DNA from: Archangium violaceum
GTDB lineage: Bacteria > Myxococcota > Myxococcia > Myxococcales > Myxococcaceae
Reading direction: 5' to 3'
Assembly: GCF_016887565.1 (NCBI RefSeq)
Contig: NZ_CP069396.1
Location: forward strand, 10,026,001-10,090,000
Length of the DNA stretch: 64,000 nt
This document shows, piece by piece, positions 2,634 to 64,000 of this stretch. Position 1 is the stretch's first letter. The number at the start of each line of letters is the position of its first letter. A program made the translations under genes and the position numbers. Under the pieces are notes generated by a model that was not told where the DNA came from, did not search any database, and worked only from the letters and a program-made list of their open reading frames with translations.

Positions 2634-4454
2634 ATGTCCGCGTCGCCGTACGAGCTCGTCATCTCCAACGGACTCTTCTTCGACGGGCAAGGCAGCCCGC
2701 CCCGGGTGCGCCACCTGGGCATCCGTGACGGCCTCGTGGCGGACATCAGCGAGTCGCCCCTGCCACGGGGGCCCGGCACGCGCGTCATCGACGCCACGGG
2801 CCGCTGGGTGATGCCCGGGTTCATCGACCTGCACACGCACTACGACGCCGAGGTGGAGCTGGCCCCCTCGCTCTCCGAGTCCGTCCGCCACGGCGTCACC
2901 TCCGTGATGGTGGGGAGCTGCTCGCTCAGCCTCGCGGTGGGTAAGCCCGAGGACCTCGCGGACCAGTTCTGCCGCGTGGAGGCCATCCCCTACGACACGG
3001 TGCGCTCGCTGCTCGAGCGCAAGAAGGACTGGAACACGCTCGGCGAGTACCTCACCCACCTGGACGGGCTGCCGCTGGGACCCAACGTGGGCTCCTTCGT
3101 GGGCCACTCGGCCATCCGGGCCCACGTGATGGGGCTGGAGCGCAGCCTGGATGACAGGGTGAAGCCCTCCTCGGAGGAGCTGGCCCGGATGGAGGCGCTG
3201 CTGCGCGAGGGACTCGACGAGGGCTACGCCGGCCTCTCCATCATGACGCTGAAGTGGGACAAGATCGGCGGGAGCCGCTCCATCCGCAGCCGGCCCCTGC
3301 CCTCCACCTTCGCGAGCTGGTCCGAGTACCGCCGCTTCACGCGCATCCTCCGCGAGCGAGGCCGCGTCTTCCAGGGCGTGCCCAACATCACCACCAAGGT
3401 GAACGTCTTCCTCTTCCTCTGGGAGAGCATGGGGCTGTTCCGCCAGCCGTTGAAGACGACGGTCATCTCCATGATGGACAGCCGGGCCAACCGGGGCATC
3501 CACTGGCAGGTGGGCCTGCTGTCGCGCCTCTTCAACCGGGTGCTGAAGGCGGACTTCCGCTGGCAGGCGCTGCCGGAGATTTTCGACCTGTGGTCGGACG
3601 GCATCGACCTGGTGGTCTTCGAGGAGTTCGGCGCGGGAGCGGCGGCGCTGCACCTGCAGGACGCAATGGAGCGCAGGCACCTGCTGGAAGACCCGGAGTA
3701 CCGGGCGGCGTTCAAGCGGCAGTGGAAGAGCAAGCTGCTGCCCAAGGTGTTCCACCGGGACTTCAACCAGTCCGAGGTGCTGAAGGCGCCGGACCCGTCA
3801 CTGGTGGGCCGCTCGTTCGCGGACATCGCTCGCGAGCGCGGACAGGACGTGGTGGACACCTTCCTGGACCTGGTGGCGCGCTACGGACCGGAGCTGCGCT
3901 GGTACACGGTGATGGCCAACGACCGGCCGCGCGCGCTGGAGTCCATCGTGAGCCACCCGGACGTGCTCATCGGCTTCTCGGACGCGGGGGCGCACCTGCG
4001 CAACATGGCGCACTACAACTTCCCGCTGCGCATGCTGCGGCTGGTGCGCGAGGCGGAGAAGCGCGGCGAGCCGGTGATGTCCATGGAGCGCGCGGTGCAC
4101 CGGCTCACGGGGGAGCTCGCCGACTGGCTGGGGCTGGACGCCGGGACGCTCGCGCCGGGCCGGAGGGCCGACGTGGTGGTGGTGGACCCCGAGCGGCTCG
4201 GCGCCGGGCTGGACGTGCCCCAGGAGTCCACCCTGGAGGGCTTCGACGGCTTCGTCCGGCTGGTGAACCAGAACGGTGGCGCCGTGGAGACCGTGCTCAT
4301 CAACGGCCGGCTCGCGGTGCACGCGGGCGCGCCCATGCCCGAGTTGGGCCGGGAGCGCGGCTTCGGACGCGTGCTGCGCGTCTCACATCTTCCGCAGTCG
4401 GATGCGGCGCACCTTGTGGTCGGGTCCCTTCACGAGGATGAGCCGCGCGCGTGA
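2634..4454 (+). CDS. amidohydrolase family 3 protein, N-acyl-D-amino-acid deacylase-like
   Basis: This 606-residue protein resembles D-aminoacylase-type amidohydrolases. A short N-terminal beta domain ([10 protein letters not shown]) is followed by the metal-binding HTH (His67, His69) in [10 protein letters not shown], a cysteine in VGSCSLS at the place where D-aminoacylases carry a metal-bridging Cys, GHSAIR, and the late catalytic Asp in GFSDAGAH. The C-terminus returns to the beta domain ([13 protein letters not shown]). Family members hydrolyse N-acyl-D-amino acids or related cyclic amides; the exact substrate is not evident. No signal peptide is seen. AGGAGG sits about 5 bases before the ATG. 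The 3' end overlaps the convergent coaA by 72 bases, an unusually long convergent overlap. Confidence 0.85.
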
Positions 4455-5336
4455 GCGGGTGGGCGCGATGTTCTGCGCCAGGTTGGGGCCGTTGATCTCC
4501 CCCCACACGGACTCGGCGCGGGCGATGGCCTGCTCCTCGGTGAGCTCGGCGAAGCGGCGGAAGAAGGAGCGCTCGTCGCGGAACGCCGTCTGCCTCAGGC
4601 TCAGGAAGCGGTCCACGTACCAGCGCCGGATGTCCTGCTCGTGCGCGTCGACGTAGATGGAGAAGTCGAAGAAGTCGGACAGGAAGATGTGCGCCGGCTT
4701 CCCGCCCGCCGCCGGCCCCGTCTGCAGGACGTTGAGCCCCTCCAGGATGACGATGTCCGGCCGGCGGATCGTCACCCCCTCGTCGGGGACGATGTCGTAG
4801 ACGAGGTGCGAGTACATGGGCGCGGTCACCTCGGCGCGTCCGGCCTTGAGCTCCGCCAGGAAGCGCACCAGGCCTCGCCGGTCATAGCTCTCGGGGAAGC
4901 CCTTGCGGTGCATGATGTTGCGCTCGGTGAGCACGCGGTTGGGGAACAGGAACCCGTCCGTGGTGACGAGCGCCACGTGCGGATGGTCCGGCCACCGCGA
5001 CAGCAGCGCCTGGAGGATGCGCGCCGTGGTGCTCTTGCCCACCGCCACGCTGCCCGCGATGCCGATGATGAAGGGCACCTTCTGGGTGAAGCCACCGAGG
5101 AACGCCTGCTGCGCCGTCCACAGGCTCTGTGTCGCGGCCACGTGGAGGTTGAGCAGCCGGGACAGCGGCAGGTAGACGTCCGCCACCTCCTCGAGATCCA
5201 GGTGCTCGCCGAGCCCCCGCAGTCCCTCGACCTCCTCCGCCGTCAGGGGGAGCGGGGTCGCGGCGCGCAGGGCCCTCCACGCATCGCGCTCGAAGTCGAC
5301 GAACATGGAGGCGGTCTGTGGCTTGGGTGCGGACAT
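4383..5336 (-). CDS. coaA: type I pantothenate kinase
   Basis: CoaA phosphorylates pantothenate with ATP, the first committed step of coenzyme A synthesis, in the cytoplasm. The 317 residues match the usual length of type I PanK. Visible signatures are the P-loop GSVAVGKST (residues 95-103), TTDGFLFPN, the [11 protein letters not shown] substrate region, YDIVP and LEGLNVLQ. Type I enzymes are normally feedback-inhibited by CoA; the fold suggests this but the sequence does not prove it. It appears monocistronic and overlaps the amidohydrolase tail at its 3' end. The ATG follows a GGAGGG run. Confidence 0.95.
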
Positions 5337-11893: not shown

Positions 11894-13222
11894 TCACGGG
11901 CACGGCTCCGCGTACCGCACGGAGCTGCCCACGACCTCCGTGCCGTTGCCGACGAGGGCGTACCAGTAGCCAATGCGCACCTCCCCCAGGGGCCCCAGCC
12001 CGAGCGCGTACTCCCAGGGGTGGGTCACCCCTTCCTTCCCATCGAGGGCGATGATGGGAGTGTAGGACCAGGACTGACGCCCCGCGGGCAGGAAGGCACG
12101 AACGAGCTTGGGATTCTCGAAGCGGTCCAGCACCGCGTGGAGGTTTCCCCGCGAGTCCGCCACCAGATCGAGCGCGATCCCAGCGGAAGGTCCCACCTCC
12201 TCGATCCGCCAGCCGCCGTCCTCCTTCACCGCGTGCTGGACGTACGAGCCACCGTACGAGTAGAGCAGGTGGGGACGCATCGAGGAATCGATCGCCAGCA
12301 CGGGCTCATTGCCCGAGATGTCCGCGACCCGCTCCTGCATCCAGGTGCCCGAGGCATTGGTGGCGTAATAGATGCCGGACTCGGCATTGGTATGCCAGGC
12401 GATGTGGGCATGGCCCCAGGCGTCGACCGCGAGATCCGCTCCGCCGCTACGGGACTGGATGCCGAGATCCGTGATCACCCACTGCCCGGACCGGTTGGTC
12501 GCATGGGCGAGGCGGCGCTCGCTGCCCGTCTCCATATCGAGAAGGACATGGGCGAAGCCGGACGGGTCGAGGGCCAGCGCGACCGGAACGCCACGGGCGA
12601 TCGCGGTGCTCTGCCAACTGACGGATCCGCTGTAGGCGTAGACGGTGCTGCCGGAGTAATCGACAACCAAGTGCCGGCCGCCGTCCGCGTCGATGGCGAA
12701 GCCCCGCACGTATCCTTGCAGCTCGCCCGCTTGAATCAGCGCATGCCCCTGCCCCATTCCGCCCACGAACACCTTGCCCTCGTCGGTCATGGCGAGATAC
12801 CCCAGGCCCTGGGAATCGAAGGCAAAAGCCGCGCTCTCCACATCCACGGCGACCTCCCGCGACCGCCGCCCCTCCACGCAGGAGGCATCCGGCAGACCCC
12901 CGTCCGATAGGCCCCCGTCCGATGTGCCCGCGTCCGATAGGCCCCCGTCCGATGTGCCCCCGTCCGATAGGCCCCCGTCCGATGTGCCCGCGTCCGATAG
13001 GCCCCCGTCCGATAGGCCCCCGTCCGATGTGCCCGCGTCCGTCATGATCGGAGGCAGACCCGCATCGCCTCCGACCTTGTCCGGAGGCGGGCCTCCATCC
13101 TGTGTGTCCTGCACATAGGTGTTGTGGTTCTCGAAGATGATGTCGATCTGGATGGGATCGCAAGCGCCCAGCAGGAGCGAGGTGAGCACCACGGCGGGCG
13201 GAAGGACGTGGGGGAGTTTCAT
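11894..13222 (-). CDS. repeat-linker lipoprotein with predicted beta-propeller-like domain
   Basis: From ATG 13222 (GAGGAA upstream) the 442-residue protein has a lipoprotein signal ending LLGAC (Cys21), then an Asp/Ser/Gly/Thr-rich linker of five-residue units (SDGGL, SDGGT, SDAGT) over about residues 60-105. The large C-terminal part has recurrent beta-strand motifs (GFAHVLLD, GHAHIAWH, MRPHLLYS, GNLHAVLD) suggesting a beta-propeller. It lies 86 bases downstream of the caspase gene on the same strand and may be the last gene of that sigma-factor operon. Surface display on an extended linker is likely; the binding target is unknown. Confidence 0.75.
   Translation of the reverse strand: MKLPHVLPPAVVLTSLLLGACDPIQIDIIFENHNTYVQDTQDGGPPPDKVGGDAGLPPIMTDAGTSDGGLSDGGLSDAGTSDGGLSDGGTSDGGLSDAGTSDGGLSDGGLPDASCVEGRRSREVAVDVESAAFAFDSQGLGYLAMTDEGKVFVGGMGQGHALIQAGELQGYVRGFAIDADGGRHLVVDYSGSTVYAYSGSVSWQSTAIARGVPVALALDPSGFAHVLLDMETGSERRLAHATNRSGQWVITDLGIQSRSGGADLAVDAWGHAHIAWHTNAESGIYYATNASGTWMQERVADISGNEPVLAIDSSMRPHLLYSYGGSYVQHAVKEDGGWRIEEVGPSAGIALDLVADSRGNLHAVLDRFENPKLVRAFLPAGRQSWSYTPIIALDGKEGVTHPWEYALGLGPLGEVRIGYWYALVGNGTEVVGSSVRYAEPCP
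12901..13041 (-). repeat. 15-base tandem repeat inside the lipoprotein gene
   Basis: The plus strand shows nine copies of TCCGAT at exact 15-base steps from 12903. Unit variants alternate (GCCCCCGTCCGATAG, GTGCCCGCGTCCGAT). They encode SDGGL, SDGGT and SDAGT. Nucleotide identity is near perfect, so copy number may change by slippage without shifting the frame. Confidence 0.9.
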
Positions 13223-13308
13223 GAAGGCGTTCCTCGGTTGGGTGTGCTGTCGGAGATACGAAGCGAGGAGCGCCGCCGGGTCGTCCGCCCTCTCTTTTTC
13301 CTCACGGC

Positions 13309-15021
13309 TCAATGCCCGAGCGACAGCTCCACGCCCCACGTGGCGCCCCACGCCTCCTCGCCATCCGCGGTGATCCGGTCCGTGCCGATGAAGCCCGCCG
13401 CGCGCAACCGCCAGGAGTCCATGCGCGCCACCACGCCGCCCGAGAGGTGGCCGGACAGCACGGTGGGATCGCCCTGCAGTCCTCCCCGGAACTTCACGCC
13501 GATCAGACTCCAGCCCGCGGCGGCCTCCACGAACGGACCCACCCGCCCGGGACCCTGGAAGCCCGCGAGTCCCTGCACGGACAACCGGTGGAGGGTCACG
13601 TCGGCCAGGGACAGGAGCGAGAGGGCGTAGGAGACACGCACGCCCAACGTATAGGGCGCCGAGGTGCGCAGGGCGACGCTCGGCCCGGTGGTGAAGCCCC
13701 CGAGCCCGAGCGGCGTCCGCGCGACCACGGCCCCCACCTCCCAGGGAGAGGGGGGCTCCGGCACGAACGCGGCGAGGGGCACGTCCAACGGCACCACCCT
13801 GCCCGGCACGAAGTCCACCGGAACGAAGGACGAGGTGGACACGTACCGCTCGTAGAAGCTCCGGTCGAAGGCCACCGAGAAGAGCCCGCGCCGCAGGGCG
13901 TCCTCCACCGGCCCGCGCTCCTGCAGCTCGCGCGGACGCAGCCGGGGCACGCCAGCACCGAGCTGCGCGAGCGCGATACGGGCCTCGGCGGTGGGCGTGC
14001 GCACCCAGTAGGCCTCCCGGACGGGCAGGCGCAGCGCGAGCGGCTGTCCCTCGGCGCGCCGCACGTCCGCCAGCCTCCGGCCCTCCTCGTCCTCCACCGA
14101 GATGCGCGCATGCTCGAACTCCGCCGGGAGCAGGAGGCTCGGCCCCTCGGGCGAAGGGCCCACCAGCGGGCGCCGGGGATCGCGCGCGGGAGCCTGGGCA
14201 CGGACGGAGAGCCGGGCGGGCAGCGCCTTCACCCCCTGCAACGAAGCGGCGACGAAGCCGGCCAGCTCGCTGTACTCCACCGCGCCATCCCCGTTGACGT
14301 CCGCCCCTCCCATCAGCCCCGAGCGCACCACGTGGCTGAAGACGCCCGCGCGCAGGCGGGACCACTCGTGCGTCTCGCCGGTGTCGCTCTCGGCGAAGAG
14401 GGCGCCCACGTGGGGCCTCGCGGCGAGCTGCTCGCGCTCCAGCGTTCCACGCAGCTCCGCCAGCACCGCCGCGTCCGCCTGTCCCCGGCTGCCCACCACG
14501 CCCGAGGCCCGGCACGCATCCACGATGACGTGGACGAAGTCCGCCCCGAGCGGGTCCACCAGTTGCGCGTAGAAGGCCGTCCGGTCCAGCCGTCCGCCCT
14601 TCACGGTGAAGTAGGCACGGCCGACCTCGTCGGTGTTGCCATGCCCCACGTAGACGAGCAGCACGTCCGTCCGCCGCCCCGTGGCGTGGTCCGCCTGGAT
14701 GGCGCCGCGCAGGGACTCCACCGCCCGGGACACCTCCTCGGGCGTGGGCGGCCGGACTCCCGACGCCAGCACCGCGGCGCCCGTCTGGCGCGTCTCCGCG
14801 TCGGGCTCCACCAGCAGCGTGGTCTCCACGCCCAGCCGCCGCAACAGCTCCGTCCACAGCACCCCGTCGTCGTCCGCGTAGCGCAGCGGAGGGAGGGCCG
14901 GGTCATCGCTGGCGTTGTGCGCGATGACGAGCGCGCGGCGCACGGGCGGGGCGGCGAGGCCCTGGGAGGCGGCGAGCAGCACCACGGCCGCGAGCAACGT
15001 TCCCCAACGGCGGCGAGTCAT
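13309..15021 (-). CDS. caspase-like (C14) protein with EF-hand loop and predicted C-terminal beta-barrel
   Basis: A 570-residue exported protein (signal peptide about 1-23). A caspase/metacaspase-like p20 domain carries the catalytic dyad His127 (YVGHGN) and Cys170 (VDACRA). Just after it is a canonical EF-hand calcium loop from Asp241 to Glu252 (DVNGDGAVEYSE). The last 160 or so residues alternate hydrophobic and polar residues with Gly/aromatic turns, as in a membrane beta-barrel or beta-sandwich. Metacaspases are Cys proteases often activated by calcium; substrate and location here are inferred. Its ATG overlaps the anti-sigma gene by 4 bases, so it is translationally coupled to the sigma/anti-sigma pair. 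A second set with the same order lies at 59.6-62.5 kb. Confidence 0.85.
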   Translation of the reverse strand: MTRRRWGTLLAAVVLLAASQGLAAPPVRRALVIAHNASDDPALPPLRYADDDGVLWTELLRRLGVETTLLVEPDAETRQTGAAVLASGVRPPTPEEVSRAVESLRGAIQADHATGRRTDVLLVYVGHGNTDEVGRAYFTVKGGRLDRTAFYAQLVDPLGADFVHVIVDACRASGVVGSRGQADAAVLAELRGTLEREQLAARPHVGALFAESDTGETHEWSRLRAGVFSHVVRSGLMGGADVNGDGAVEYSELAGFVAASLQGVKALPARLSVRAQAPARDPRRPLVGPSPEGPSLLLPAEFEHARISVEDEEGRRLADVRRAEGQPLALRLPVREAYWVRTPTAEARIALAQLGAGVPRLRPRELQERGPVEDALRRGLFSVAFDRSFYERYVSTSSFVPVDFVPGRVVPLDVPLAAFVPEPPSPWEVGAVVARTPLGLGGFTTGPSVALRTSAPYTLGVRVSYALSLLSLADVTLHRLSVQGLAGFQGPGRVGPFVEAAAGWSLIGVKFRGGLQGDPTVLSGHLSGGVVARMDSWRLRAAGFIGTDRITADGEEAWGATWGVELSLGH

Positions 15022-15767
15022 GGAGCGTCCTCTACCCGAACCGGCATCCGGAGCACCACCGCACCCGGGATGACCTCACCCCGCAGCGCTCCGAGCGCCG
15101 ACCGGGGCGAGTCCGCGAACGCGGCGGTGACCTCGGCCGTCCCCGGGGACATGGGGAGGGGAATGGTGGCCTCCAGCGGCTGCTCCGCGCCCGGACGGCC
15201 GGCGACGGCGTAGGGACCCTCCGTCACCTGGAGCCCGGCTCCGCGCACCTCCACCGCGACATGCGACAGCGGCGCCGACGCCCCCACGGCGAAGGCCAGC
15301 ACCGAGTCCGGTGGACACGCCTGCTCCCGCTTCAGCTCACGAAGGGGCTGCTGCCGCACGGCGCAGAACACGCGCAGCACGGCACCAGGGGGAAGCCCCA
15401 CGCCCCGGGATTGCCACTGCCCGACGTCGCCGGGGTGGACGAGCACCAGCGCCGCGAGGCCCAGCGCCGCCACGAGCCCTCCCACCATGGCCAGCGGGGG
15501 CCACCGCCAGCGCTCCGCCTCCGAGGCCGCCGCCGACAGCGCCGCCGCGAACCCCGTGTCCGCCAGCACCGCCACCTCCAGCTCGGTGGGGACGTGGAGG
15601 TCGCCGCGCTCCAGCATGCGGTGGGCCTGGACCAGCCTCTCGTATCGGCCCCCGCACCGCGCGCAGGCGTGGGCATGTCTCAGCAGCCGGGCGGACTGGC
15701 GCGGGGACAGGGTCCCCTCGGACCAGCGCGCCAGCAGGCCATCCACGTGCTCGTCGAACCACCTCAT
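15018..15767 (-). CDS. membrane anti-sigma factor with N-terminal zinc finger
   Basis: The ATG at 15767 overlaps the stop of the sigma-factor gene by 4 bases and gives a 249-residue protein. The N-terminus has an HxxxCxxC zinc-binding anti-sigma motif (His31, Cys35, Cys38, HAHACARC). One transmembrane helix (about 92-110, MVGGLVAALGLAALVLV) separates it from a roughly 130-residue periplasmic domain with beta character. By analogy with ZAS-type anti-sigma factors it holds the co-encoded ECF sigma factor at the membrane until an envelope signal is sensed. It is between the sigma and caspase genes with overlaps on both sides. Confidence 0.85.
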   Translation of the reverse strand: MRWFDEHVDGLLARWSEGTLSPRQSARLLRHAHACARCGGRYERLVQAHRMLERGDLHVPTELEVAVLADTGFAAALSAAASEAERWRWPPLAMVGGLVAALGLAALVLVHPGDVGQWQSRGVGLPPGAVLRVFCAVRQQPLRELKREQACPPDSVLAFAVGASAPLSHVAVEVRGAGLQVTEGPYAVAGRPGAEQPLEATIPLPMSPGTAEVTAAFADSPRSALGALRGEVIPGAVVLRMPVRVEDAP

Positions 15768-16462
15768 ATGCCACTCCCCATTCCACACAGGGCGATGAAG
15801 GCCACGAGGAGTCCCTCCGTGGCACGCGAGGAGGCGGGGGCGGAGTCATCCAGCCACCCCCGGACCCGCAGGTATTCGGTGAACCGCGTCCGCAGGTGGC
15901 GCTCGCGCACCCGCACCTCGCCGCGCGTGAGGTGGAGGCGCTCGGCGGCCACCTCCTGCGAGAGTCCTTCCATGAAGCGCAGCCGCGCGAGCTCCCGCGT
16001 CACCTCGGGCAGCCCATCGAGGAACTCGCGCACCAGCGTGCGCACCTCGGACTCCAGCGCCCGCTCCTCGGGGCCGCTGTCCCCGGCGGGGACCTGGTTC
16101 AGCTCGGGGATGTCGTCCAGCGGCACGGCCTCGCGAGCCACGCGGCCCGAGGCACGCAGCAGGTCCAGGGCCGTGGAACGCGCGATGGTCAGCAAGAAGC
16201 CGAGGTAGGGCCGCACCCCGTCATAGGCCTGGCGCATGGCGGGGCGGAAGGCGCGGACGAACGTCTCCTGGTGCGCCGCGTCCAGGTCCAACGCCCCCAG
16301 CGTGACGCTGTCCACCCCCGCCGTGGAGCGCACCTGGAAGCGTCGGGCCAGGTAGCGCACCACCTCCGGCGAATAGGCGCGGTACACCCGCGTGAGGGTG
16401 GCACGGTCCCCCTCGCGGAATGCCCGCAGCACGGCCTGATCGCTTCCGCTCGGCAGCAGCAC
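15764..16462 (-). CDS. ECF-type RNA polymerase sigma factor
   Basis: The 232-residue protein has a sigma region 2 (DAAHQETFVRAFRP, then TIARSTALDLLRASGR) and a region 4 helix-turn-helix (LPEVTRELARLRFMEGLSQEVAAERL). It starts at GTG 16462 with AGGAG 5 bases upstream. The C-terminus extends beyond region 4 and ends hydrophobic (LLVAFIALCGMG), unusual for an ECF factor and perhaps a contact with its anti-sigma. It heads the sigma/anti-sigma/caspase/lipoprotein operon, so it probably drives that operon and envelope-stress genes. The target promoter cannot be defined from this window. Confidence 0.85.
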   Translation of the reverse strand: MLLPSGSDQAVLRAFREGDRATLTRVYRAYSPEVVRYLARRFQVRSTAGVDSVTLGALDLDAAHQETFVRAFRPAMRQAYDGVRPYLGFLLTIARSTALDLLRASGRVAREAVPLDDIPELNQVPAGDSGPEERALESEVRTLVREFLDGLPEVTRELARLRFMEGLSQEVAAERLHLTRGEVRVRERHLRTRFTEYLRVRGWLDDSAPASSRATEGLLVAFIALCGMGSGI

Positions 16463-16580
16463 GACGCTCCTGTTTTCCAGCCCTTTTCCAACATACGAGG
16501 CGAGCCCGCCGGTCTGGTCGTTCGAGGTGTCGGAATCGTGCCGGAAACCCGCTCCGGCGGAAAATCACACGGGCACGAAA

Positions 16581-62520: not shown

Positions 62521-63216
62521 TCACGGGCACGCGTGCCGCGAGCCCTCCAGCGCCAGCGAGGTGGAGGCCGGGAGCGAGACGAATGACGCGGGCCCGCCCT
62601 CGGGCCGCTGGACGCCGAGGAGGCTGAAGCCCCGAGGCACCTCGCGAGGCCACCGCTCCCACGCGCCCGAGCGCTCGGACGGAAGGGTCCCATCCAGGAA
62701 GAGCACGGCCAGCCCCGAATCGAGTGAGGTGGCCACCACACGCTCCCCTCCCGCCCCCTCCGAGCCCAGGTCCAGGCTCCCGTTGCCGTTGTCGTCCTGG
62801 AAGAAGACGATCCACCCGAGCGCCAGACGGCCCCGCCCACCCGACGGCTCCAGCGCGAGCTGGGCGGCCGGTACGGGAGTCGTGGACAGAGGTAGGACGA
62901 AGCTGGAGGGGAAGTGCGGCTGGAAGGACGTCGGCTGTAGGAGTGCCTCCCGCTCCGTCCCGCACGAGGACCCCTCCGCCAGCAGCAGCGAGGCGAGCCG
63001 CTCCGTGGCGGCGAGCTCCGGCGCCCACGCCAGGGTCATCGCCGTGGGGCCCTGCCCGCTACCCACCTTCGCGCGGAGCTCGCCCTCCAGGATGGCCACC
63101 GGCTCGACCGGATACGTCTCATCCGCCAGCCCATACTCCCCGCAGCCGGCCACGCCCACCGCCAGGGTGGTCAGCCACGAGGTGAGCCGCGACACGTGTG
63201 TCTGAGGATGGGTCAT
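62521..63216 (-). CDS. lipoprotein between matrixin and sigma-factor genes
   Basis: From ATG 63216 (ATGA overlap with the metalloprotease gene) the protein has 231 residues with a lipoprotein signal ending GVAGC. The mature part has a Cys-containing segment (GSSCGTEREALL) and an Asp/Asn loop DDNGNGSLDLG resembling a calcium-binding DxNxDG type turn. No family is recognised. It is in a string from matrixin to caspase and may be a partner or substrate of those proteases. Confidence 0.7.
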   Translation of the reverse strand: MTHPQTHVSRLTSWLTTLAVGVAGCGEYGLADETYPVEPVAILEGELRAKVGSGQGPTAMTLAWAPELAATERLASLLLAEGSSCGTEREALLQPTSFQPHFPSSFVLPLSTTPVPAAQLALEPSGGRGRLALGWIVFFQDDNGNGSLDLGSEGAGGERVVATSLDSGLAVLFLDGTLPSERSGAWERWPREVPRGFSLLGVQRPEGGPASFVSLPASTSLALEGSRHACP

Positions 63217-64000
63217 CCGCCGTTCTCCGGTCTCCGGCGCCGCGGCGCCAACAGTGTCACCAGCCCGAGCAGCAGCGCCCCCGCTCCCGCACCAGGGGCG
63301 GCGCTGCACCCCTGGGGCTTGCTCGTTAGCTGACGGAGCTCGGGCTCCGCCTCGACACAGTCTACAGCGGGAGCCCCGGGCGGGTAGATGGAGCACATGG
63401 CCTGCCGCGAGCCCTCGTCGATGGCACTCGAGGAGCCCTGCCCCTGGTAATGGGGATACATCGTCGAGCGGGAGTCCGGCGAGTGCGCCAGGCCCAGTGC
63501 ATGCCCCAGCTCGTGCGTCACGGCCCCCTGAAGGTCCACGGTGGGGGTCTGGGAGAAGAAGGCCACCGCGTTGAGCTCGATGTCCGTGTCGAGCACCTCG
63601 CCCGAGCGCATCCGGAAGGTGCTCGTCGTCATGGCCAGGGTCTCCGTCCCGTGCCGCCAGCAGTCCTCGCTCTCCGGCTGCGTACAGGCCCGATCCCTCA
63701 GGAGGATGATGTTCTCGTTCGGGCCAGAGGGGACGTAGCCCACCTGCCGCGAGGCCGTGACGGGCCCCTCGGAGAGGCGCAGGCTCGTGCACCCCGCGAG
63801 GATTTCATCCCAGCCCTGGAGCGCGAGGCCCACCGACGCCTGGCGCGCCGTGCAATCCGGTTCTCCGGACATGCACTGCTGCTGGTGGAAGGTGAGCGTG
63901 CTGCCCCCTGGCCACCACAGGCAATGTCCCTCCGGTGCGCTCTCGGTGGGAGGCGTGCGCGTCCGGACGAAGGGAGGTGGCGACGTCGGCTCGTCGAGAG
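63213..64000 (-). CDS. matrixin-type (M10-like) zinc metalloprotease, 5' end outside window
   Basis: The frame stays open to the right edge, reading GGSTLTFHQQQC and earlier Pro/Thr-rich sequence before any start, so the N-terminus is missing. The metzincin zinc site HELGHALGLAHS is complete and followed by STMYPHY, whose Met is the Met-turn. The C-terminus has PGAGAGALLLGLVTLLAPRRRRP, a hydrophobic stretch followed by a basic tail, like a MYXO-CTERM-type sorting tail. It should be secreted and act on extracellular or envelope proteins. First seen gene of the second caspase operon. Confidence 0.85.
   Translation of the reverse strand, partial: LDEPTSPPPFVRTRTPPTESAPEGHCLWWPGGSTLTFHQQQCMSGEPDCTARQASVGLALQGWDEILAGCTSLRLSEGPVTASRQVGYVPSGPNENIILLRDRACTQPESEDCWRHGTETLAMTTSTFRMRSGEVLDTDIELNAVAFFSQTPTVDLQGAVTHELGHALGLAHSPDSRSTMYPHYQGQGSSSAIDEGSRQAMCSIYPPGAPAVDCVEAEPELRQLTSKPQGCSAAPGAGAGALLLGLVTLLAPRRRRPENGG

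Follow-up and report, generated by a model that had tools for sequence, protein, structure and literature searches.

Caspases encoded with sigma and membrane anti-sigma factors in Archangium violaceum are candidate site-1 proteases of their own anti-sigma factors

A stretch of 64,000 nucleotides of Archangium violaceum (contig NZ_CP069396.1, positions 10,026,001 to 10,090,000; hereafter the window) contains two operons, sets A and B, in which the genes for an extracytoplasmic function (ECF) sigma factor, a membrane anti-sigma factor and an exported caspase homologue follow one another. The stalk of the anti-sigma factor and a loop of the neighbouring caspase carry the same dipeptide, Lys-Gly or Arg-Gly ([K/R]-G), and this match points to the anti-sigma factor as a substrate of the caspase. 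We propose, with a probability of roughly 0.6, that each caspase performs the site-1 cleavage of the anti-sigma factor encoded next to it. The computation yielded conserved operons, a domain architecture, a conserved catalytic dyad, conserved and matching motifs, and promoter-like elements. From these we infer a signal, an outer-membrane location, cleavage and its order, and the release and targets of the sigma factor.

All window features reported here lie on the minus strand. In set A the sigma gene (P0001, 15764..16462, GTG start) is followed by the anti-sigma gene (P0002, 15018..15767, ATG start) and the caspase gene (P0003, 13309..15021). The same order is formed in set B by P0004 (62013..62513), P0005 (61210..62016) and P0006 (59633..61213, GTG start). 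An earlier sequence-only reading of this DNA had described the genes as joined by 4-base overlaps, and this holds for both sets: both junctions of set A are ATGA, and those of set B are ATGA, then GTGA. Together with promoter-like elements (see below) the overlaps support the putative co-transcription of the sets. Both sigma factors exceed the TIGR02937 cut-off of 42.9 bits (64.9 in set A, 74.6 in set B). P0004 passes sigma-70 region 2 (Sigma70_r2, 48.0 bits) as well as region 4 (r4_2, 29.1 bits). P0001 passes region 4 (Sigma70_r4, 27.4 bits) in addition to TIGR02937; its Sigma70_r2 score is 22.5 alone and 25.2 with its neighbours in frame, the cut-off being 24. The zinc-finger assignment of the anti-sigma factors stood in part. 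P0002 and P0005 each have an H-x3-C-x2-C motif (HxxxCxxC) and one transmembrane (TM) helix (residues 92-110 and 89-107, respectively) and are encoded beside a sigma gene, but the Pfam family zf-HC2 scored 17.0 against a cut-off of 22.2 in P0002 and gave no match in P0005, so that the assignment relies on motif and helix. Residues 156-227 of P0005 match DUF4384 below the cut-off. When comparing the two sets, the caspases are 30% identical over 224 amino acids and the sigma factors 32% over 168, and BLASTP detected no similarity between the anti-sigma factors (best E 0.20). Judged by these identities, sets A and B are distant paralogues.

The C-terminus of P0001 is a hydrophobic tail (GLLVAFIALCGMGSGI), which is kept in the listed Myxococcus/Corallococcus-type orthologues and absent from the A. 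violaceum-type loci L003 and L004 (L-numbers denote fetched caspase loci). Possibly, the set A sigma factor is membrane-associated.

The caspase domains score 27.5 bits (P0003) and 32.2 bits (P0006) with Pfam Peptidase_C14, for which the cut-off is 21.4, and both proteins have an intact His/Cys dyad. We refer to the set B-type caspases as subfamily A1 and to the set A-type caspases as subfamily A2. The dyad is invariant in 34 aligned A2 sequences (H127/C170 in P0003) and in 33 aligned A1 sequences (H107/C144 in P0006). Two residues ahead of the catalytic cysteine stands an aspartate (D-x-C), a residue with a role in the S1 pocket of caspase relatives that prefer a basic P1 residue. Based on the motifs, proteolysis after Lys or Arg is a putative activity of both window caspases. 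An EF-hand-like loop is indicated by D211 and E222, which are invariant in A1, and by a match of the A2 profile to an EF-hand protein (E 3.7e-5); matches to Pfam EF-hand families are below the cut-off. The AlphaFold2 (AF2) models of both proteins place the caspase domain first, then an immunoglobulin-like (Ig-like) beta-sandwich, and finally eight long strands that run to the C-terminus (residues 427-569 in P0003, 360-525 in P0006). The mean predicted local distance difference test (pLDDT) value is 84 in both cases. Foldseek matched the front of P0003 to the caspase-Ig region of MALT1 and its rear to NspA and OmpA; the corresponding matches of P0006 are caspase-7, and OmpX and Ail. Both predicted models thus have the eight TM strands of a small outer-membrane beta-barrel, and in most sets the barrel probably sits in the outer membrane.

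Since P0003 and P0006 are the only modelled members, the barrel of the others is inferred from alignment. The A1 profile matches nearly end-to-end in many of the listed genomes, including those of other families of the phylum. Within A1, conservation is lowest in the barrel (mean majority fraction 0.32, versus 0.55-0.64 in the caspase parts), as expected if the barrel meets the outside. In the genome to which the window belongs (13.2 Mb; own genome), the N-termini of all 12 caspases found read as export signals by eye. The 10 encoded in sigma-first operons have extended C-terminal regions, and in 8 of these the last residue is Phe, Trp or Leu, a resemblance to barrel proteins. None of the 12 has a TonB-receptor or signalling-domain match in Pfam. 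Their matches were to Peptidase_C14, with none to CHAT; no CRISPR search of the genome was made.

The dipeptide occurs at corresponding places in the two sets. In the set A anti-sigma factor, the proposed P1 residue is Arg121 (QS-R|G-VG, codon 15405..15407), 11 residues past the TM helix; in set B it is Lys127 (HL-K|G-AP, codon 61636..61638), 20 residues past it. On the caspase side, the loop after the catalytic cysteine holds the proposed self-cleavage sites, namely Arg179 of P0003 (GS-R|G-Q, codon 14485..14487), located after Cys170 and invariant in the 34 aligned A2 caspases, and Lys153 of P0006 (RA-K|G-G, codon 60755..60757), invariant in the 33 aligned A1 caspases. As the AF2 models have pLDDT values below 50 at residues 179-185 of P0003 and 148-168 of P0006, the invariance of R179 and K153-G154 is hard to explain by folding alone.

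For a count across loci, 168 loci with a TM-bearing open reading frame (ORF) directly upstream of the caspase were clustered at 60% identity into 56 representatives. Three of these (L122, L177, L180), whose neighbouring TM ORF is no anti-sigma factor, were excluded. The remaining 53 (43 A1, 10 A2) include L200 and L204, which have too little upstream DNA to show a sigma gene. The family-matched dipeptide (K-G in A1, R-G in A2) was found 4-34 residues past the anti-sigma TM helix in 49 of the 53; after shuffling of the periplasmic parts (2000 rounds) the mean was 7.2 and the maximum 17. In these 49 the distance from the end of the helix to P1 is 6-24 residues (median 12). Any [K/R]-G was present in 52/53, compared with 1/24 zinc-motif anti-sigma factors located away from caspases in the own genome and relatives (Fisher p 2e-17, ignoring relatedness). 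This control started from 51 loci and left out proteins without a detected zinc motif and TM helix, with fewer than 40 periplasmic residues or adjacent to a caspase; the loci added to it are 30 of 125 matches, a selection made by the search tool with near-orthologues included, and the 24 proteins are thus no census. K-G is found in the caspase loop of 41 of the 43 A1 representatives, R-G in that of 9 of the 10 A2 representatives, and the family dipeptide stands on both sides in 47 of the 53. The flanking residues also resemble each other: the A1 consensus is [I/V]-R-x-K|G-G in the anti-sigma factor (P3 Arg in 26/39) and T-R-x-K|G-G in the caspase loop (P3 Arg in 34/41), and in A2 the R|G is followed mostly by a small residue on both sides, without a P3 Arg. 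L209 has undergone an independent double switch to R-G, in stalk and caspase loop alike, and the differently arranged own-genome loci L038 (SRG/SRG) and L040 (KG/KG) match as well. No loop dipeptide was found in L113 and L117, distant caspases without sigma neighbours. A comparison of distance matrices was set aside as proof of contact, since the lengths differ and common inheritance explains the correlations; the r values with the caspase were 0.78 for the sigma factor, 0.62 for the periplasmic and 0.38 for the cytoplasmic part of the anti-sigma factor, all above those of 500 shuffles.

The gene arrangement is not confined to the window. Of the 12 own-genome caspase genes, 10 were found by Pfam and two (P0003 and the gene at 11896559) by tblastn, and a further divergent member may have been missed. 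The "two paralogous sets" of the sequence-only reading are thus paralogues of the same gene order, as it said, but an understatement of the 12 caspase loci. All 12 adjoin an ECF sigma gene, and 10 have the order sigma, anti-sigma, caspase. In L040 the order is caspase, sigma, anti-sigma, and in L038 a divergent sigma and an anti-sigma gene lie beside the caspase gene. The genome has 53 Sigma70_r2 matches, and by their positions no fewer than 11 are caspase-locus sigma factors; the divergent sigma of L038 is absent from these 53. With 12/12 caspases sigma-adjacent in a genome with 53 such matches, chance neighbourhood was rejected as an explanation. The anti-sigma factors of L034 and L036 lack HxxxCxxC. 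In L036 there is a second Sigma70_r2 match (7847790-7847990, minus strand), located some 1.5 kb past the caspase gene in the downstream direction.

In six genomes of the genus, a count with less bias gave at least 53 of at least 65 caspase-domain matches adjoining a sigma gene; it omits L055 (a fragment), L044 (a barrel remnant) and a weak match (G004:C214, E 8.5e-4) and includes the fragment L130. Among the 12 without a sigma neighbour, four keep the TM protein (L105, L114, L123, L130), L122 encodes caspase and sigma in a single ORF, L009, L030 and L041 are orthologues of L038 with no sigma close by (that of L041 is about 3 kb off), and four are distant C14 proteins (L110, L113, L117, L132). 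The single ORF of L122 (G002, plus strand, about 3092-4972; sigma profile E 1.2e-37) is either a real fusion or a sequence error; L122 is apparently an orthologue of L040, where the genes are separate. L044 (G003, 1100000-1109000) resembles a decayed locus: its match to a set A-type protein is confined to the C-terminal barrel part, and a single copy of the promoter-like element lies about 1.8 kb off.

Across the phylum (Myxococcota), the A1 profile matches in 120 of 146 genomes. We collected 197 distinct caspases, counting those identical over residues 31-230 once (L101 and L102 duplicate the contigs of L003 and L005), and excluded 12 with less than 1.3 kb of upstream sequence. A sigma gene lies directly upstream in 156 of the remaining 185, with a TM protein between in 151 of these 156; in the others it is divergent (9), downstream (4) or missing (16). 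Caspases mostly lacking sigma neighbours, the outcome that would have spoken against the sequence-only reading, were thus not what we found (156 upstream plus 13 divergent or downstream), in a survey whose queries (P0003, P0006 and the A1 profile) skewed it to set A/B-type, barrel-bearing caspases. HxxxCxxC is present in 127 of the 151 TM proteins. The notion of conserved units of sigma factor, membrane anti-sigma factor and exported caspase with a connection to the envelope is hence supported. Eight of the 16 sigma-less caspases have a TM-bearing ORF directly upstream. It is no anti-sigma factor in L122, L177 and L180; in L061, L105, L114, L123 and the fragment L130 it is anti-sigma-like with K-G, and no sigma gene was found in the fetched DNA of these five. 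Apparently, the pair of anti-sigma factor and caspase therefore outlives the sigma factor. In these relatives of L036 the K-G protein still overlaps the caspase gene by 4 nt.

Spread by plasmids was rejected, P0006 having no match among 72,556 records. One record labelled Comamonas sp. KCTC 72670 (L097) contains a locus about 60% identical to set A; the locus resembles Myxococcus records, and the label is probably wrong.

From these data, it is reasonable to propose that each locus would be a self-contained trans-envelope signalling unit. The inner-membrane anti-sigma factor would hold the cytoplasmic ECF sigma factor, and the product of the third gene would be exported as a caspase zymogen that has an EF-hand-like loop and, typically, a C-terminal 8-stranded outer-membrane barrel; with its C-terminus so placed, the protease domain should face the periplasm. 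A trigger acting through the barrel or the envelope, such as a ligand, failed assembly or changed spacing, would induce the caspase to cut itself in the loop after the cysteine, at R-x-K|G-G in the set B type and x-R|G in the set A type. Its next target would be the same motif in the anti-sigma factor, 6-24 residues beyond the helix in the inner membrane; this would be the site-1 cleavage. Intramembrane proteolysis would next free the sigma factor, which would transcribe its own operon and the companion lipoprotein gene. The sequence-only reading had assumed that the anti-sigma factor regulates the caspase; this is probably one half of a loop, since the motifs point to the anti-sigma factor as the caspase's substrate. 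At somewhat less than even odds we further suggest that the phylum has multiplied a one-protein sensor-protease, in which a barrel in the outer membrane and a calcium-type caspase would sense the condition of that membrane and, by cleavage of the anti-sigma factor at the caspase's own self-activation motif, switch on a private ECF sigma factor. The dozen or so parallel loci found in the one genome would then serve as insulated channels between envelope and transcription, and bacterial caspases would have a role in signalling, not killing.

In an alternative scenario, the caspase is merely the output: other proteases free the sigma factor under envelope stress, and while the cells develop or prey on others the exported caspase breaks down proteins or favours lysis. 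The caspase gene is indeed last in a sigma-led operon, which in set A is preceded by an ECF-type promoter-like element, and a part in autolysis has been called conceivable for myxobacterial metacaspases (PMC3501461). We nevertheless consider this scenario unlikely, as it leaves unexplained the [K/R]-G match between anti-sigma factor and caspase, the retention of both without a sigma gene, and the fusion of a barrel to a supposedly degradative enzyme. Still less probable, in our view, is that the stalk is a pseudo-substrate whose uncut [K/R]-G sits in the caspase active site and locks both proteins together until a signal separates them. Binding without cleavage would give equal conservation and draws on the same motif evidence, but with a basic P1 and Gly at P1' the motif resembles good substrates of caspase relatives, and catalysis seems to be selected for because the dyad is invariant in both alignments. 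Similarly improbable is a structural turn unrelated to the caspase, with the genes linked for co-expression only: the dipeptide does precede the periplasmic domain (its turn would lie before the first strand), the family clustering could reflect common descent, and stalks with the other dipeptide as well or instead occur, but only 1/24 other anti-sigma factors have it, the periplasmic parts that it precedes in sets A and B share no detectable similarity, the same dipeptide recurs in or next to a caspase loop of low model confidence, a place that would not require it for structural reasons alone, and the unlinked caspases L113 and L117 lack it.

Several observations weigh against cleavage of the anti-sigma factor by its caspase. 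Geometrically, a protease tethered to the outer membrane must reach a site near the inner membrane, and predicted template modelling scores of 0.67 (P0003) and 0.62 (P0006) leave the domain placement uncertain. The caspases of L038 and L040 are shorter and without the long C-terminal region, so the barrel is not essential. As for the motif, it was first spotted by eye in own-genome loci, nine of which are among the 53 representatives, and the K/K versus R/R agreement is mostly one deep difference, because A1 and A2 are two clades. The other family's dipeptide occurs in the stalk window of 12/53, in nine besides their own and in three instead of it; these three are L209, and L215 and L217, which have K-G in the caspase loop and hence no match. 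In A1 the association between a P3 Arg in the stalk and one in the loop is weak (Fisher p = 0.034, uncorrected for relatedness). The L034-type caspases, six in number, all have neither D-x-C nor the loop dipeptide, although K-G is kept in their anti-sigma factors; moreover, the TM anti-sigma factor of L199 and the caspase loop of L047 are without the dipeptide. With regard to linkage, L020, L065 and L179 are caspases without an upstream sigma or anti-sigma gene, the motif scan found no zinc-type anti-sigma factor in the non-canonical loci L144 and L021, and in L037 (own genome 10882000-10891000) the caspase persists beside an anti-sigma factor that has lost the TM helix and the periplasmic part. 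The loss in L037 appears to be an internal deletion relative to L035, and its caspase keeps the dyad and the K-G loop.

Upstream of the set A sigma gene we noted an ECF-type promoter-like element, ACGACC-N18-CGTAT (16493..16521), 30 nt before the sigma start. A second copy (13256..13284) lies 33 nt before the gene of a companion lipoprotein (11894..13222; lipobox LGAC, Asp/Gly-rich linker), which follows the caspase gene. Among 17 set A-type loci with sufficient sequence upstream of the sigma gene, ACRACC-N18-CGTAT is exact in 13, three differ at the first base, and L081 is without it; the element precedes the sigma gene in the window and likewise in L002 and L003. The 13.2 Mb genome has five exact matches, two of them in the set A locus, and two matches to the backward control pattern. 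A second copy ahead of the following gene is found in L002, L003, L004 and L081. This distribution suggests a small local regulon, and presumably the set A sigma factor reads the element. A set B promoter of the same type was searched for and rejected: with one mismatch allowed, the window has three matches, none near set B.

Homologues of the set A lipoprotein are encoded behind the caspases of L002, L081, L092 and L098. More generally, an ORF with a lipoprotein signal that starts between -10 and +130 nt of the caspase stop follows 81 of the 148 sigma-first operons with enough downstream sequence, compared with 2/444 control windows. The set B companion (62521..63216) is located upstream of the sigma gene instead; it has homologues among the lipoproteins encoded behind other caspase operons (best E 3.9e-13), and the end of a set B-type lipoprotein gene also precedes the sigma gene in L052-L054. 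The start of the set B lipoprotein gene overlaps by 4 nt with a gene for a Matrixin-type metalloprotease (63213-63872, minus strand; Peptidase_M10, 40.7 bits). All six own-genome DUF4384 matches (E <= 1) lie in anti-sigma factors beside caspases, one of them passing the Pfam cut-off. DUF4384 also occurs with 23 cyanobacterial orthocaspases (PMC8283722); as a bridge it is suggestive only.

The role of bacterial caspase homologues is a long-standing open question, often discussed in terms of programmed cell death. For a large, phylum-wide caspase family, the neighbouring anti-sigma factor is now a candidate substrate at residue level that can be tested cheaply. If the proposed cleavage is true, an outer-membrane protein would supply the site-1 protease in a trans-envelope signalling design, and the caspase-to-sigma logic of type III-E CRISPR systems would be widened. 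The loci are also a source of candidate trios, each a protease with its matching cleavage site and sigma factor, which would be useful insulated parts if orthogonal.

The overall layout recalls two well-known envelope systems. FecI, FecR and FecA are an ECF sigma factor, an inner-membrane anti-sigma factor and an outer-membrane barrel with a periplasmic N-terminal domain, and the same three components are predicted here; whereas Fec uses a TonB-dependent transporter with a signalling domain, the loci described here have an 8-stranded barrel with a caspase domain. In the sigma-E pathway, DegS is the periplasmic site-1 protease that opens RseA, an ECF anti-sigma factor, as proposed here for the caspase. 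DegS, however, is a trypsin-like PDZ protease sensing other outer-membrane proteins, whereas the protease proposed here is a barrel fusion with a single, cognate anti-sigma factor.

With metacaspases and MALT1 the caspases share the fold and the H/C dyad, and MALT1 also has the order caspase, then Ig, and R|G specificity; those of the present loci differ in being exported and in having an EF-hand-like loop and an outer-membrane-type barrel. MALT1 tolerates hardly any residue but Gly at P1', and it cleaves its natural substrates at Arg-Gly bonds (PMC6207715). As a precedent for the specificity of the A1 anti-sigma consensus [I/V]-R-x-K|G, VRPR is the optimal tetrapeptide of the metacaspase AtMC9 (PMC4713714). 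Self-cleavage in the linker has been reported for an algal metacaspase, at a site that alignment places after an Arg (PMC10896300).

The linkage of sigma and caspase genes, which the sequence-only reading did not know as a described system, was in fact reported in 2012: sigma-70 genes are present in 4/5 metacaspase operons of M. xanthus (Asplund-Samuelsson et al. 2012, PMC3501461) and are also linked to metacaspases in Anaeromyxobacter, Haliangium, Sorangium, Ralstonia and Fibrobacter. These operons resemble the present ones in combining a sigma-70 gene and a caspase homologue in several Deltaproteobacteria; the available part of that paper has no mention of an anti-sigma factor, a caspase barrel, cleavage motifs or lipoprotein companions. 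In the available parts of the open-licence literature we found no description of outer-membrane barrel caspases, of their cleaving anti-sigma factors, of the matched [K/R]-G or of the frequent lipoprotein companion. EACC2 systems likewise have adjacent caspase and ECF sigma genes, but the partners there are EACC2 and a DUF1822 tetratricopeptide repeat protein (PMC8195603) instead of a membrane anti-sigma factor and a barrel, and CHAT proteins occur in ECF54 contexts (PMC8999054). In type III-E CRISPR systems the caspase-fold protein Csx29 cleaves Csx30, an inhibitor of an ECF sigma factor (PMC10028731). There the protease is an RNA-guided CHAT protein, and no membrane parts are described in the available text, whereas the loci of A. 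violaceum and its relatives combine an exported Peptidase_C14 protein, mostly with a barrel, with a membrane anti-sigma factor.

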